Source of the DNA: Acidilobaceae archaeon
Lineage (GTDB): Archaea > Thermoproteota > Thermoprotei_A > Sulfolobales > Acidilobaceae
Assembly (NCBI GenBank): GCA_027014125.1
Contig: JALWEI010000008.1
Span: 1-49,505 of the forward strand
Direction: 5' to 3'
DNA: 49,505 bases
Shown: in pieces, positions 23,311-29,006 of the stretch
Position numbering within the stretch: position 1 is the stretch's first letter
Layout of the letters: each line of letters opens with the position of its first letter
The notes under the pieces: model-generated
What the model was told of the DNA's origin: nothing
Databases searched by the model: none
Seen by the model: only the letters and a program-made list of their open reading frames with translations
Position numbers and translations under genes: made by a program

Positions 23311-23384
23311 CGATATACACCGGTTGTAGACATATTTCGGTTTTTAAAATATTCGGTACGGCTAGCATATAACCCCTATCCCGG

Positions 23385-23401
23385 CTGGATACTGTATCCA
23401 G
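23385..23401. promoter_or_regulatory. 17-bp perfect palindrome between exporter and deoC
   Basis: CTGGATAC T GTATCCAG lies in the divergent intergenic region, 11 bp before the proposed deoC CTG start and about 75 bp from the exporter start. TATA-like A/T runs (23341-23353) flank it. A dimeric regulator site is likely. The nearby PadR protein is a candidate binder, though the sequence differs from the usual ATGT-N8-ACAT type. Confidence 0.5.
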
Positions 23402-23412
23402 GGTGCACCAGG

Positions 23413-24102
23413 CTGAGGGGGATAATAGAGGCAGTATCGAGAACAAGCCCCGAGGACCTCGCCAGGATGATAGACTCGACCCTGCTCAAACCCACAGCCA
23501 AGGCCAGGGACGCCCTGGAGCTAGTCAGGGAGGCCGCCTCCCTGGGGTTCCACTGCGCCATGCTACCCCCAACACTGGTCGGGCACGTGAGGAGGGAGGC
23601 CGAGGAGCTGGGGGTCAGGCTTTGCAGCGTAGCCGGGTTCCCCAGCGGCATGCACCCCCTGAGGGTTAAGATCGCGGAGCTCGAGCACCTAGCCTCCCTG
23701 GGCGTCGAGGAGGTTGACATAGTACCCAGCCTAGCCACAGGGGAGGACATCGAGGCCCTAGTCAAGGTGGCTAGGGAGGCCGGGGTGAGGGTGGTCAAGG
23801 TGATAGTGGAGGCCCCACTCCAGGGCGATGACAGCCTAGAGAGGCTGGTAGAGGCCTCCTACAGGGCTGGGGCTGACTACGTGAAGACCAGCACCGGTGT
23901 CTACAGTAAAGGGGGAGACTATGAGACAGTCCGCAGGCTACATAGGATAGCCGGGCCCCGGGGTCTCAAAGTCAAGGCTGCTGGTGGCATAAGAGACGGG
24001 CTCCAGGCGATACTGGCTATAACAGCCGGGGCCTCGAGGATAGGAACCAGCAGCGGGGCCAGGGTGCTCAGGAGCTACAGGGAGCTGGTGGGCCAGGCTT
24101 GA
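23413..24102 (+). CDS. deoC: Deoxyribose-phosphate aldolase
   Basis: A class I DeoC aldolase that interconverts 2-deoxyribose 5-phosphate with acetaldehyde and glyceraldehyde 3-phosphate. Visible motifs are IDSTLLKP (normally IDHTLLKP), VDIVPSLATG, VKVIVEAP and DYVKTSTG, where the Lys forms the Schiff base, plus KAAGGIRD. The first ATG (23467) would start directly at MIDSTLLKP and cut off the N-terminal helix present in homologues. The open frame extends upstream without ATG, GTG or TTG. A CTG at 23413 with GGTG 7 nt before it gives an 18-residue natural N terminus (LRGIIEAVSRTSPEDLAR), so I infer a CTG start. It overlaps the next gene by TTGA. Confidence 0.88.
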   Translation: MRGIIEAVSRTSPEDLARMIDSTLLKPTAKARDALELVREAASLGFHCAMLPPTLVGHVRREAEELGVRLCSVAGFPSGMHPLRVKIAELEHLASLGVEEVDIVPSLATGEDIEALVKVAREAGVRVVKVIVEAPLQGDDSLERLVEASYRAGADYVKTSTGVYSKGGDYETVRRLHRIAGPRGLKVKAAGGIRDGLQAILAITAGASRIGTSSGARVLRSYRELVGQA

Positions 24103-25604
24103 GGGTGGGGCTGGTAACGAGCAGATCCGCTAGGAGGCTGGTGGAGGAGGTAGCTAGGGGCCTAGACGGGGAGGTAGAGATCATAGAGGTTCCAGTGCCA
24201 GTCATATCCTTCCTCTCCACCACCACCCTGGCAAAGATCATAGAGGCTAGGAGCGAGCTTAGGGAGAAGCTTAGCAGGGTCGACGTGATAGTCATACCAG
24301 GCAGGGTCAAGGGCGACGCTGAACCCATAGAGAAGGTGACAGGGAGGCCAGTGTACAAGGGCCCCAAGGACCTGGGCCTTATACCCGCTGCTGTGAGGCA
24401 CCTACTCTCCGGTGGCAGCCTAGACCGGGCCAGGCCTGCCGAGCAGGTTATGGGTAGCGTTACCCTCAAGCTGGAGCCCACCATCGCATTCAGGATAGGC
24501 AGGGTAGAGGTGCCATCCCGGGGCCCACCAGTGCTAGTGGTTACAGAGATCCACCCCGGCGTGGAGGAGGGTAGAGTTGCCTCGGAAGCCAGGAGGCACC
24601 TCTCCGACGGGGCCAGGATCATACTAGTCGGGGCCGGCGACGGGGTTAGCCCCGAGAGCCTCGCTAGGAGGATCGAGGCCGTAGCCGCGACCGGGGCCCC
24701 TGGGATCCTTGCCGAGGCGCCATCTAGAAGACACGCCAAGGCTGCGCTTGATGCGGGGGCTCATGGGATATCCACTTCGCCCGACACGCTAGGCGAGGTC
24801 CTAGACCTGCTGCCTAGCGACGCGGCTGTTCTCCTGGGAGACAGGGACCTGGGCCGGCTCGAGTCTGGGCTGGACCTGCTGCGCATCCATGGGGTGGACA
24901 AGGTTGTGCTAGACCCCGTCCTGGGGCTCCCCCTTATAGACCTGGCCGAGTCCATAGGGAGGTACAGGGAGGCCCACAGGCTCGGGGCTCCGCTCCTCTT
25001 CACCGCCGCCAACGTAACCGAGGAGGTTGAGGCCGACCCGCACGGGGTGCACGCAGTCCTGGCCGCCCTGGCCGTGGAACTCGGGGCCAGCCTCTACCTA
25101 GTCGTCGAGGAGACCTACAAGTCCACTCACGGCACCGCGGAGGCGGCGGAGGCGCTCAGGCTGGCATCTGAGGCTTGGGCTAGGCGCTCCACGCCCCGCG
25201 GGCTCTATAGCAGGCTCTACGTTGCCAGACAGCCGGTCAAGCCCCCGCAGCCCCCGAGGGTGGAGGCGGAGGCAGTGTATTATGTGGAGCCGAGGATCGA
25301 TAAGAGGGGTTACATAGAGGTGCATGTAGACCATGATAGGGGGGTCATAAGGGCCGTCTACAGGAGACTCCCAAGCCTGGAGGTGGAGGCTGCGGTTGAG
25401 GGTGTACACCCTAATAGCATAGCCAGGGCTCTCATAAGGAAGGTGGGGCTGGATCCCGAGCATGCCGCATACCTGGGGGCCGAGCTGGCTAAGGCTCATA
25501 TAGCCCTTAGGCTCGGCCTAACCTACACTCAGGACGAGCCAGTAGTAACCCCGGTATGGGAGAAGGTGCGAAGCGTTGAGGGTGGCGGCGAGCAGTCCTG
25601 CTAA
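24099..25604 (+). CDS. Dihydropteroate synthase-related protein
   Basis: A 501-residue protein matching the archaeal dihydropteroate-synthase-related family (TIGR00284 type). Residues about 1-130 are a unique N domain. A TIM-barrel-like middle (about 145-350) includes the GISTSPDTLGEVLD and DKVVLDPVLGLPLIDLAESI strands of a pterin-binding fold. The C-terminal domain (about 380-490) is specific to the family. Real pterin activity has not been settled for the family to my knowledge. It starts at TTG overlapping deoC by 4 nt and runs 29 bp into mevalonate kinase. Confidence 0.8.
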   Translation: MRVGLVTSRSARRLVEEVARGLDGEVEIIEVPVPVISFLSTTTLAKIIEARSELREKLSRVDVIVIPGRVKGDAEPIEKVTGRPVYKGPKDLGLIPAAVRHLLSGGSLDRARPAEQVMGSVTLKLEPTIAFRIGRVEVPSRGPPVLVVTEIHPGVEEGRVASEARRHLSDGARIILVGAGDGVSPESLARRIEAVAATGAPGILAEAPSRRHAKAALDAGAHGISTSPDTLGEVLDLLPSDAAVLLGDRDLGRLESGLDLLRIHGVDKVVLDPVLGLPLIDLAESIGRYREAHRLGAPLLFTAANVTEEVEADPHGVHAVLAALAVELGASLYLVVEETYKSTHGTAEAAEALRLASEAWARRSTPRGLYSRLYVARQPVKPPQPPRVEAEAVYYVEPRIDKRGYIEVHVDHDRGVIRAVYRRLPSLEVEAAVEGVHPNSIARALIRKVGLDPEHAAYLGAELAKAHIALRLGLTYTQDEPVVTPVWEKVRSVEGGGEQSC

Positions 25605-26526
25605 GGCGATCCTCTTCGGAGAGCACTTCGTAGTCAAGGGAGCCGCGGGGGTGGCAACCGCTATAGGCCTGAGGGCCAGGGTCGTCGTGGAGGAGTCCCA
25701 AGGCCGGGGGATAACTGTCACGAGCGCTATGGGCGAGGCCAGGATTAATGGGAAGCCCGTGCCAGGGTGGGCAGAGCCCTTCAAGATGGTCCTCGAGTGG
25801 CTCCGCGGCAGGGGCTACAGCGAGGCCCCGGCTAGGGTTGTGGTTGAGAGCGATATACCCCCGAGGGCGGGGCTGGGGAGCAGCGCTGCCGTCTCAGCTG
25901 CATTCGCCCTCGCCTACACGGCCCTCCACGGGGATCCCCTGAGCGTTGGGGACCTGATAAAGGCCGCCACTGTGGGGGAGGCCGCTGCCCATGGTAGGCC
26001 CAGCGGTATAGACCCTACCGTAACCGTCCTAGGCGGTGTTGTCAGTTTTAGCAGGGAGGAGGAGCCCATGGTTCTCCGACCCCCGAGGCTCGGGAGCGTC
26101 GCGCTCGTTATAGCCGATAGCGGGGTTGAGAGGAGCACTAAGGAGGCCGTCGAGAAGGTGCTTGCGCTGGCAGAGAAGTACTGGGACGTCATGTCCAAGC
26201 TGTACTATGCCGCCGACACCCTGTCTAGGAGGGCTGTGAAGCACCTGTCAAGGGGCGACTATGAGAGCGTGGGGGAGCTGATGAATATAAACCACGGCCT
26301 CCTATCGGCTATCGGAGTCTCAACCCCAAGACTGGAGGACCTAGTCTACACCGCCAGGGCGGCCGGGGCTCTAGGGGCTAAGATAACCGGGGCCGGGATG
26401 GGCGGCTCCATAGTCAGCCTCGCCAGGGCGGGGGACTCTAGCAGGGTCCTGGAGGCGCTGGCTGGGAAGGCTGCGTGGGCTAGGTCCGTAGAGATGGGCG
26501 TGGAGGGTACTAGGCTAGAGGAGTAG
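25576..26526 (+). CDS. mvk: Mevalonate kinase
   Basis: A 316-residue GHMP kinase. The N-terminal SSPAKAILFGEHFVVKG is the mevalonate kinase substrate motif, PPRAGLGSSAAVSAAFALA is the GHMP nucleotide loop, GRPSGIDPTVTVLGG contains the catalytic Asp, and KITGAGMGGS is motif 3. It phosphorylates mevalonate to mevalonate 5-phosphate, the first step shared by all mevalonate routes to archaeal lipids. TTG start inside the upstream gene's end. Other pathway genes occur 8 and 22 kb downstream (IPP isomerase, prenyl synthase, UbiD-family decarboxylase). Confidence 0.95.
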   Translation: MRVAASSPAKAILFGEHFVVKGAAGVATAIGLRARVVVEESQGRGITVTSAMGEARINGKPVPGWAEPFKMVLEWLRGRGYSEAPARVVVESDIPPRAGLGSSAAVSAAFALAYTALHGDPLSVGDLIKAATVGEAAAHGRPSGIDPTVTVLGGVVSFSREEEPMVLRPPRLGSVALVIADSGVERSTKEAVEKVLALAEKYWDVMSKLYYAADTLSRRAVKHLSRGDYESVGELMNINHGLLSAIGVSTPRLEDLVYTARAAGALGAKITGAGMGGSIVSLARAGDSSRVLEALAGKAAWARSVEMGVEGTRLEE

Positions 26527-26527
26527 C

Positions 26528-27565
26528 GTGATGCTGGAGCTGAAGCTGTCCAGAATCTCCACGCTCGGCATAGCCCTCTCCGTAGTCCTAGTGATCCCGG
26601 GTCTACTAGCTGCCCCCCGCCTTGCCACGCTCCACATGGGGCTAGTCGGCCTGGGCGCCGGGCTCCTCTTCCCCACAGCGATGTACATAACATTCACTGG
26701 GAGCCTCAAGTCTGGGCTGCCGAGGAGGGGCGTCGAGGCAGCCGTTCCTCTCGCCTCCGTCCTCCTGGCAGCGGCATCGCTCCCGCTGTACCTGGCTGGC
26801 CACCCCGGCTGGAGGGCCTCAGCTGTGGGTGGCCTCTTGTTCTTGGCCTTGCACTCGTGGCTACAGGCCCGGGGGTGGCGGAGGAGGGAGCCTTGGTTTG
26901 TGCTCCTCTATCCTTCCCTGGCTGGGGCGGCTGGCCTTGCGTGTGGGTGCGGCGTGGTCGAGTCGATGCTGAGGGTTGGCCTTTTCTACGCTGCTCCGAT
27001 GGTTGTCGTGGTCTCGCTATTGACTGTGTCCAGGAATTATGGCGTGGACCCGTCGAGGCCTTGGGTTTACTCACCCCTAGCCCTTAACGCTGTTAGCCTT
27101 GTACTGGCTGTTGCTGGGTATAGCTGGTATCCCGTCGTCTCTGGGCTGGGGCTGCTCCTCTACTTTGCCGTGCTTCGTGTCTGGAGGGCTCCCAGCCTAG
27201 TTGCCCGGGGCCTGCGCATCGGGGGTCCTGGTGGCGGGGCTCTGGTGTATATGGGGGTGTCCCACCTCTCATCGCTGGCTTCTCAGCTTCTCTGGCTGGC
27301 GTCCTTGGACGTGCTCTCGATGGTCCATGTTGTGTATATCGGCTTTGTCGGGGTTCACATATTCCTTCATGCTCCCCTGATGCTGCCTCAGGTTGTTAGG
27401 GTTAGGCTGGCTAAGGTGTATGTCCCGCCTCTCCCACCTATACTCCTGGCTATGGCGGCCGTCGCGAGGCCCTGGCTCCCTGGCATGTCCTATGCCCTCA
27501 TGGTTGCCTCGCTGATCCTACTTCTGGTCCAGTTTAGGCCCTTAGGGCTCGTAGGAAGGGGTTAG
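26528..27565 (+). CDS. Polytopic membrane protein of unknown function
   Basis: A 345-residue protein with roughly ten hydrophobic helices spread from residue 10 to 340 and few charged residues. Short basic loops (RGWRRREP, RLAKVY) lie between helices. His residues occur in helices (LFLALHSWL, GVSHLSSL, VHIFLHAPL), which could bind heme or metal, but no family signature is certain. It follows mvk by 1 bp (GTG then ATG at the start) so it is probably co-transcribed with it. It converges with the tRNA methylase gene with a 4-bp overlap. I do not recognise it. Confidence 0.75.
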   Translation: MMLELKLSRISTLGIALSVVLVIPGLLAAPRLATLHMGLVGLGAGLLFPTAMYITFTGSLKSGLPRRGVEAAVPLASVLLAAASLPLYLAGHPGWRASAVGGLLFLALHSWLQARGWRRREPWFVLLYPSLAGAAGLACGCGVVESMLRVGLFYAAPMVVVVSLLTVSRNYGVDPSRPWVYSPLALNAVSLVLAVAGYSWYPVVSGLGLLLYFAVLRVWRAPSLVARGLRIGGPGGGALVYMGVSHLSSLASQLLWLASLDVLSMVHVVYIGFVGVHIFLHAPLMLPQVVRVRLAKVYVPPLPPILLAMAAVARPWLPGMSYALMVASLILLLVQFRPLGLVGRG

Positions 27566-28584
27566 GGCCTCCTCGCCACTACTACCTCCCTAGTTAGGCT
27601 GGAGTGAACGTACATGTGCATCCTCGCCAGGACCTGGAGTCCTGCCTCCTCTCCGAGGCTCGCCGGCTCCTCGCTGTGTGGGCCGGCGTATACTATGTAT
27701 CCCCCGGGGGCTAGGGCCTCGAGTGCGGCGCTTAGGAAACCCTCCATGAGCCTCCTGTACCCCATCCTAGCGGTCGTGGTAGACCTACCGTAGGGGGGAT
27801 CCGTGGCTATAGAGTCTACTACACCACTGCCTATAGGCAGCTTCGCAGCGTTGTGTGCTATAACAAGGCACCTGCCGCAGGTGAATGTGTCTAGGTTTAC
27901 CCTCGAGCCCCTGTACATGGCCCTGTCTAGGTCTCCGCAGATTATCCTCCCGGCGCCTACCATCATGGCCTCTATTGCGAAGCCCCCGGTGCCGCAGAAG
28001 GGGTCTAGGAAGGTGGATCCCTCCCGGGGCCTGGATAGGTTTACAAGGACCCGTGAGAGGTCTGGGCTTAGGGGGCCGGGCTTGAAGAATGGCCTCCTTC
28101 TGGGCCTCCTAAGGTGGAACCCCTTCTCCCTGGAGGCGAGTATGATCCCGGCTATCGCTACTCCCTCGGTTATGAATACTCTGAGGACCTTGCCTCCCTT
28201 CCCCAGGCTGGCCCTGCCCCTGAGCTTTGATACGAGGATCCTCCTAACCACGTCCTCCCTTGCCTGGGGGGAGTAGCCTTTGAATCTCCAGGGGTCTACC
28301 CATACCTTCTCCCCCTCTAGGCTTCTCGCCGCCTCCTCTGCTAGTGCCTCTATCCCCTCGACTGTGGACTCTGCTATCCCTAGGAGGAGCCCTATCTCTC
28401 TGACCCATGCAGCCCTCTCCGCTGCTTTCCTGGGGTTCAGGCTCCCCGCGTCGAAGAGTGCTAGCCCCTCGAGGTGGTACGTGATCCTGTAGCTTGGCGT
28501 GACCACGTCTAGTATCGCTTTTAGCTCTTCTAGGGGGAGGCGTGGGTGTTCTCCTGATAGTATGGCGTAGTATCCCGGCTTCAG
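27562..28584 (-). CDS. trmG10: tRNA (guanine-10) N2-methyltransferase, TrmG10/Trm11 type
   Basis: A THUMP domain (about 30-150) joined to a Rossmann methylase (about 165-340). Motif I is FLDPFCGTGGFAIEA and the catalytic motif IV is TDPPYGRS, as in Trm-G10 enzymes that make m2G or m22G at position 10 of tRNA. The first standard start, GTG 28506, would begin at VTPSYRIT. In-frame upstream sequence reads KPGYYAILSGEHPRLPLEEL, the normal N terminus of this family, back to a CTG at 28582-28584 and no ATG, GTG or TTG. It lies 2 bp after the gcvH stop with GGGAGGG upstream, so I take CTG as the start (341 residues). Confidence 0.88.
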   Translation of the reverse strand: MKPGYYAILSGEHPRLPLEELKAILDVVTPSYRITYHLEGLALFDAGSLNPRKAAERAAWVREIGLLLGIAESTVEGIEALAEEAARSLEGEKVWVDPWRFKGYSPQAREDVVRRILVSKLRGRASLGKGGKVLRVFITEGVAIAGIILASREKGFHLRRPRRRPFFKPGPLSPDLSRVLVNLSRPREGSTFLDPFCGTGGFAIEAMMVGAGRIICGDLDRAMYRGSRVNLDTFTCGRCLVIAHNAAKLPIGSGVVDSIATDPPYGRSTTTARMGYRRLMEGFLSAALEALAPGGYIVYAGPHSEEPASLGEEAGLQVLARMHMYVHSSLTREVVVARRP

Positions 28585-28586
28585 GC

Positions 28587-29006
28587 CTAGCTTCCCTCCC
28601 TCCTCTTGACGCTCTCCACGTATCCCTGGGCGTCTAGTAGGCCCTCTAGCTGGGATGGGTTGCTTGGCTTGAGCTTGGCTATCCAGCCCTCACCGTAGGG
28701 GTCAGTGTTTACTAGCTCTGGCTCGTCTAGGAGCCTCTCGTTCGCCTCTACTACCTCCCCGTCAACGGGGGCGTAGACCTCTCCAGTCGCCTTTATCGAC
28801 TCTAGGACTGCCAGTACCTCGCCCCTCGAGTATACCTTGCCCACTTCTGGGAGCTCTACTCCTACAACGTCCTTCAGCTTCTTCTGCGCATAGTCTGTTA
28901 TCCCGATCACGATAGTGTCTCCCTCAATCCTTATCCACTCGTCGGACTCGGTGTACCTGAGGTCCTCGGGCACCTTGAACCTTATACCCCCAACCTCTAC
29001 CTCCAT
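28587..29006 (-). CDS. gcvH: Glycine cleavage system H protein (lipoyl carrier)
   Basis: A 139-residue GcvH. Typical segments are YTESDEWIRIEGDTIVIGITDYAQKKL (opening), VELPEVGKVYSRGEVLAVLESIKATGEVYAPVDGEVVEAN with the lipoylated Lys72 in ESIKATGE, and the closing NTDPYGEGWIAKL. It shuttles the aminomethyl intermediate between glycine decarboxylase and T protein, and may act as lipoate donor. No other glycine cleavage gene is in the window. ATG start. It is 2 bp upstream of trmG10, on the same strand. Confidence 0.95.
   Translation of the reverse strand: MEVEVGGIRFKVPEDLRYTESDEWIRIEGDTIVIGITDYAQKKLKDVVGVELPEVGKVYSRGEVLAVLESIKATGEVYAPVDGEVVEANERLLDEPELVNTDPYGEGWIAKLKPSNPSQLEGLLDAQGYVESVKRREGS

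Follow-up and report, generated by a model that had tools for sequence, protein, structure and literature searches.

Probable CTG start codons of deoC, trmG10 and a small share of other genes in an Acidilobaceae archaeon

Two core genes of an archaeon of the family Acidilobaceae, deoC and trmG10, appear to begin at CTG. This reading of the pair is well supported by comparison with related genomes, and the whole explanation, in which both starts belong to a low-frequency, lineage-wide use of CTG as a fourth start codon decoded by Met-tRNAi, is judged highly probable. CTG starts are known but rare; what is new is their regular, conserved use in core genes within one archaeal family.

Genomes and survey

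The window, a stretch of 49,505 nucleotides, is contig C8 of the source genome (G000; 99.8% complete, 1.82 Mb, 47 contigs). The source organism is an uncultured, hydrothermal-vent relative of Aeropyrum. It was compared with three congeners (G001, G002, and G003), two Aeropyrum genomes (G015, which is A. pernix, and G023), and a more distant family member (G022). G000-G003 resemble metagenome assemblies, and two of them were deposited as MAGs. The best named matches to the trmG10 of the window come from an Acidilobaceae archaeon MAG (98%), a Desulfurococcales MAG (90%), and an Aeropyrum sp. MAG (54%). The survey of start codons covered 742 kb of G000 including the window (~41% of the genome), with 594 genes scored by codon usage.

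The starts of deoC and trmG10

The identities of both genes are secure. Read from CTG, deoC (23413..24102, + strand) encodes a deoxyribose-phosphate aldolase of 229 residues plus stop, which matches Pfam PF01791 (E=2.4e-6) and the A. pernix DeoC structure 1n7k (E=1e-61) and has orthologues across the family. The Schiff-base lysine motifs that accompany the DeoC/LacD aldolase profile (KTSTG and KAAGGIR) are present as VKTSTGVYSKGG and KVKAAGGIRDG. The trmG10 gene (27562..28584, - strand), also read from CTG, encodes a TrmG10/Trm11-type tRNA (guanine-10-N2) methyltransferase of 340 residues plus stop, which matches PF01170 (E=1e-32) and the structures 6zxw (E=7e-26) and 5e71 (aligned across query positions 10-335). 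The DPFCGTG and DPPYG motifs of its methyltransferase domain are found as DPFCGTGGFAIEA and TDPPYGRS; the match to the N-terminal THUMP-containing region is that to 5e71, the THUMP Pfam model itself being unreported.

An earlier, sequence-only reading had proposed that neither gene has an ATG, GTG, or TTG at its conserved N terminus, and that each has in its place an in-frame CTG behind a Shine-Dalgarno (SD) motif. Direct reading upholds both statements, and the first is also borne out by a scan of genes lacking a standard start (orphan genes), in which each frame was read from its upstream stop. The proposed deoC start (23413..23415, +) is preceded by the SD core GGTG (23402..23405, +) with a spacer of exactly 7 nt, which are the commonest motif and spacing for standard starts in G000. 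Upstream, where the frame stays open for 42 codons, the 32 codons shown contain no in-frame ATG, GTG, or TTG, and none lies between the CTG and the first in-frame ATG (23467..23469, +), 18 codons downstream. A TATA-box-like CATATAAC (23366..23373, +), read directly, is kept in G002 and G003; transcription probably starts at about 23395-23400, for a leader of about 15 nt.

The proposed start of trmG10 (28582..28584, -) lies 9 nt after the SD motif GGGAGGG (28594..28600, -), which is located in the 3' end of a gcvH-like gene (28587..29006, -); a GGAGGG run occupies the same position in G001-G003. The TAG of the gcvH-like gene (28589-28587) is 2 nt ahead of the CTG, and translational coupling of the two genes is possible. 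The frame upstream is open for 35 codons, with no standard start in the 32 shown, and again there is none before the first in-frame GTG (28504..28506, -), 26 codons past the CTG.

Both starts are conserved. The CTG of deoC is found in G000, G002 (83% protein identity), and G003 (61%), with G001 excluded from the comparison, as the N terminus of its deoC is beyond a contig edge. The trmG10 start codon is CTG in G000, G001 (98%), and G002 (90%); in G003 (65%) TTG takes its place exactly. For each gene, no other start-like codon combines the right frame, the SD register, and presence in the orthologues, the TTG of G003 being the one exchange. In G002 an in-frame stop lies 7 codons above this CTG, with no ATG, GTG, or TTG between. 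An error of sequencing or assembly that changed a start codon or shifted the frame might be suspected in a genome of 47 contigs whose two closest named relatives are MAGs. Its probability is nevertheless close to negligible, given that the same CTGs are present in independently assembled congeners at 61-98% protein identity and that alaS behaves likewise in two single-contig Aeropyrum genomes (discussed below).

Translation could instead begin at the downstream standard codons, ATG 23467 and GTG 28506, with the CTG region serving as an untranslated leader. These are the starts that standard gene finders would call, and since in some bacterial DeoC proteins the first strand comes after only a few residues (matches begin at chain residue 2-4), a short DeoC could fold. 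However, neither codon is conserved: the ATG of deoC is AGT in G003, and the GTG of trmG10 is GTT in G002 and GTC in G003. Furthermore, the trmG10 residues that would be lost (YYAILSGEHPxLPLEEL) are conserved in relatives with standard starts, and the codons between each CTG and the downstream start have a strong third-position bias. Between G000 and G002, differences at codon positions 1/2/3 number 3/1/10 over the 18 codons from the deoC CTG, compared with 6/3/2 just upstream of it, and 1/0/10 over the 26 codons from the trmG10 CTG. The regions following the CTGs thus evolve as coding sequence while the internal starts are not conserved, which places the beginning of translation at the CTGs or within a very short distance of them and makes the downstream starts very unlikely. 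The preference for CTG over the two internal codons in the sequence-only reading is therefore sustained.

For deoC, a start at ATA (23422..23424, +) is a weaker alternative. The aligned codon, three codons past the CTG, is GTG in G002 and G003 and could be the deoC start in those two genomes, and ATA starts are plausible elsewhere in G000 (see below). In the window, where this codon is ATA, a standard start at that position is impossible. Against an ATA start, it is CTG rather than ATA that is common to the three species and stands at the modal GGTG spacing; the spacer between GGTG and ATA would be 16 nt, longer than those at which an excess of GGTG precedes standard starts. A start at ATA is accordingly considered unlikely, and CTG remains the preferred codon. 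The N-terminal peptides predicted from the CTG reading are (M)RGIIEAVSR for deoC and also (M)KPGYYAILSGEHPR.

CTG in the Shine-Dalgarno register

A broad test for SD motifs (any 4-mer, spacer 4-11) has a background of ~20% and is powerless, and a sharp test for GGTG with a spacer of 7 or 8 nt was used instead. GGTG with a 7-nt spacer (GGTG-N7) precedes 17.5% of the clear standard starts of G000 and 0.1% of internal ATG, GTG, and TTG codons, so that this register is nearly diagnostic of starts in this genome. When all codons near gene starts are ranked by their enrichment in the register, ATG, GTG, and TTG come first and CTG comes next. CTG occurs there 12 times, compared with the 0.9 that internal CTGs would predict (P=7e-9). 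At GGTG-N7, 9 CTGs are seen where 1.69 would be expected if CTG behaved like the other codons of these regions (P=7e-5), or 8 when deoC is omitted (P=4e-4); among the other 21 spacers, only a spacer of 18 reaches P<0.05 for CTG (11 against 4.94, P=0.013). Across the 742 kb and 594 genes surveyed, no non-standard codon other than CTG shows strong enrichment at GGTG-N7.

A second comparison concerns 31 genes whose coding stretch is not preceded by a standard start. Their 13 codons in the register comprise 6 CTG, 2 ATA, and 5 singles; CTG, which makes up 14 of the 597 codons, thus accounts for 6 of the 13 (P=2.5e-7, or 3e-6 without deoC). In A. pernix the register test is weak (4 against 1.2, P=0.035), and it is not significant in G023, in G022, or in the small sample from G002.

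Other genes that may start at CTG

Outside the window, at least seven more genes of G000 appear to have a CTG start. The list was compiled with CTG in view, all codons being compared in the register and orphan-gene tests only. Two candidates have CTG in 4 of 4 congeners: a class I/II aminotransferase gene, with the SD motif AGGTGG, and a gene for a hypothetical protein of 154 residues. In the latter, the CTG and the SD motif of G001 have shifted together by one codon, and an in-frame TAG directly precedes the CTG of G003. In others, CTG is exchanged for a standard codon: hisS has CTG in G000-G002 and GTG at the aligned A. pernix codon; the start of the fecC permease gene is CTG in G000 and G001, GTG in G002, and ATG in G003 at the same codon; and cda (cytidine deaminase) has CTG in G000 and G002 and TTG in G003. 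The CTG of a class V aminotransferase gene (csd-like) is matched by TTG in two Aeropyrum genomes, in an alignment with a one-residue gap. The seventh, tmcA, has CTG behind AGGTG-N7, and no homologue of it was found in the congeners.

With deoC and trmG10, CTG starts would be used by 9 of 594 genes, an estimate of ~1.5% that is likely a lower bound because CTGs near a standard start are missed. The two starts, which the sequence-only reading took for rare exceptions, are part of a pattern that recurs in the family and covers at least 9 of the ~594 genes examined.

Several SD-register CTGs were set aside. The CTG at L116 5858, replaced by CTA in G002, is probably a false positive; those at L086, L085, and L109, which are near standard starts, do not enter the count, nor does that at L102. 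In addition, several long coding stretches with no upstream standard start (L093, L092, L086, L098, L105 17568, and L099) turned out to contain a suitable GTG or ATG shortly after their beginning.

In Aeropyrum, alaS appears to start at CTG in both single-contig genomes (G015 and G023), and in G015 a stop precedes the CTG by 6 codons; in G000-G002 an ATG is found within one codon of the Aeropyrum CTG position. The Aeropyrum orc1/cdc6 gene (L125 11435 in G015; L215 12822 in G023) has a conserved GGTG-N7-CTG start candidate. The G015 gene, whose product is identical to PDB 2v1u across 58 residues, has an in-frame TAG 4 codons above the CTG, and the solved chain of 2v1u starts 12 residues later. 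A short-chain dehydrogenase-like gene of G022 (L243 12257) has GGTG-N7-CTG at its expected N terminus and also an upstream GTG.

Decoding of CTG

Strong pairing of GGTG or GGAGG at a fixed spacing would place the 30S subunit with CUG in the P site, where the ordinary initiator Met-tRNA (anticodon CAU) would be accepted despite a single mismatch at the first position, and the proteins would begin with Met. At trmG10, ribosomes that finish gcvH 2 nt upstream may re-initiate at the CTG. Together, the SD register and the exchange of CTG with ATG, GTG, and TTG favor such an ordinary initiation pathway. A special CAG initiator tRNA is not found among the 45 tRNA matches, whose sole CAG anticodon belongs to one ordinary, long class II tRNA-Leu, and this also makes the ordinary initiator with a strong SD the likely arrangement.

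Initiation with leucine, by an elongator or a special tRNA, has been described for CUG in mammalian cells (PMC524250). For the present genes it is highly improbable: interchange with ATG, GTG, and TTG at orthologous starts fits Met-tRNAi, and the class II tRNA-Leu(CAG) is an ordinary one. Initiation with Met at CTG is thus preferred. Loss of the fidelity factor aIF1 is ruled out as a cause by the presence of SUI1. The 16S gene, including its 3' end, was not found in the G000 genome.

ATA and other candidate starts

Two genes with suggestive evidence for a start at ATA are those of an M50 peptidase and a DEAD-type helicase. In three genomes (G000, G001, and G002) the M50 peptidase gene (L091 6405, -) has GGTG-N7-ATA, and an in-frame stop lies two codons ahead of the ATA; in G003 the codon aligned with it is TTG. 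The helicase gene (L100 ~19530, -) has GGTG-N8-ATA in G000 and G002. In each, ATA is the only start in the SD register. The count of ATA is not in itself significant (P=0.12).

A 2-isopropylmalate/homocitrate synthase-like gene (L111 8301-8250, -) has GTA where G002 has GTG. In both G000 and G002 it is preceded by a short ORF in another frame (MGLSNLGV/MGLPNLGV), the stop of which overlaps the GTA/GTG codon, an arrangement that may represent a leader peptide, a frameshift, or an odd start. A nuclease-like gene (L108 8545, -) has ACG where G003 has ATG, and in G000 a TAA breaks the frame behind an ATG that is aligned with a GTG of G002.

Relation to known systems

A. pernix belongs to the same family, has the same GGTG ribosome-binding motif (PMC2848648), and shares a relaxed choice of start codon with the window genome. 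Its starts are given as 52% TTG, 28% ATG, and 20% GTG (Yamazaki 2006, as quoted in PMC5911459). These figures, as quoted, leave no share for CTG, whereas the window genome appears to use CTG in the same register as an additional, less frequent start; A. pernix alaS itself seems to start at CTG. CTG initiation has been seen in another archaeon, Methanosarcina mazei, where Ribo-seq places CTG starts in ~5% of unannotated small ORFs (PMC11456600). There, however, the evidence is experimental and concerns unannotated small ORFs of a euryarchaeon, while here it is comparative and concerns conserved core enzymes of the Thermoproteota.

Switches between AUG, GUG, or UUG and CUG among close relatives have also been counted. 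Across 36 prokaryote triplets, 4 switches to CUG were found from ~69,000 ancestral starts (Belinky et al. 2017, PMC5622118), in contrast to the several CTG-to-standard differences within a few hundred genes of the window genus; because that work used annotated starts, CUG may have been under-counted. Prodigal, which learns the GGTG motif of A. pernix, limits its starts to ATG, GTG, and TTG (PMC2848648), so it is bound to shorten or misplace the start of each CTG gene reported here. Among the open-access papers searched, no report was found that core genes of the Acidilobaceae recurrently start at CTG.

A wider proposal stands at about even chances: that start choice is generally relaxed in the Acidilobaceae (the window genus and Aeropyrum), with CTG as a regular fourth start in a few percent of genes, among them those of aminoacyl-tRNA synthetases, and with ATA, and perhaps ACG or GTA, used at ideal SD spacing. 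If so, SD placement would outweigh codon identity in initiation, and N-terminal errors would be systematic in annotated proteomes throughout the family. HisRS, AlaRS, Trm-G10, and DeoC would be truncated or missed in databases, affecting cloning, structure prediction, and proteomics searches. A. pernix alaS would offer a natural test case, in a culturable organism, for SD pairing versus codon-anticodon match in archaea.

A palindrome beside deoC

Between deoC and a divergent transporter-like gene lies a conserved palindrome, TGGATACTGTATCCA (23386..23400), which is a probable operator. With up to one mismatch, the motif occurs ~2-3 times per genome in many members of the family, compared with few occurrences in reversed-sequence controls. 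Judged by eye, it precedes methylmalonyl-CoA mutase-like and BtuF-like binding protein genes, an ORF that lies 1.4 kb before FecCD, and a gene related to the window ORF 24099-25604. The motif possibly marks a cobalamin-related regulon.
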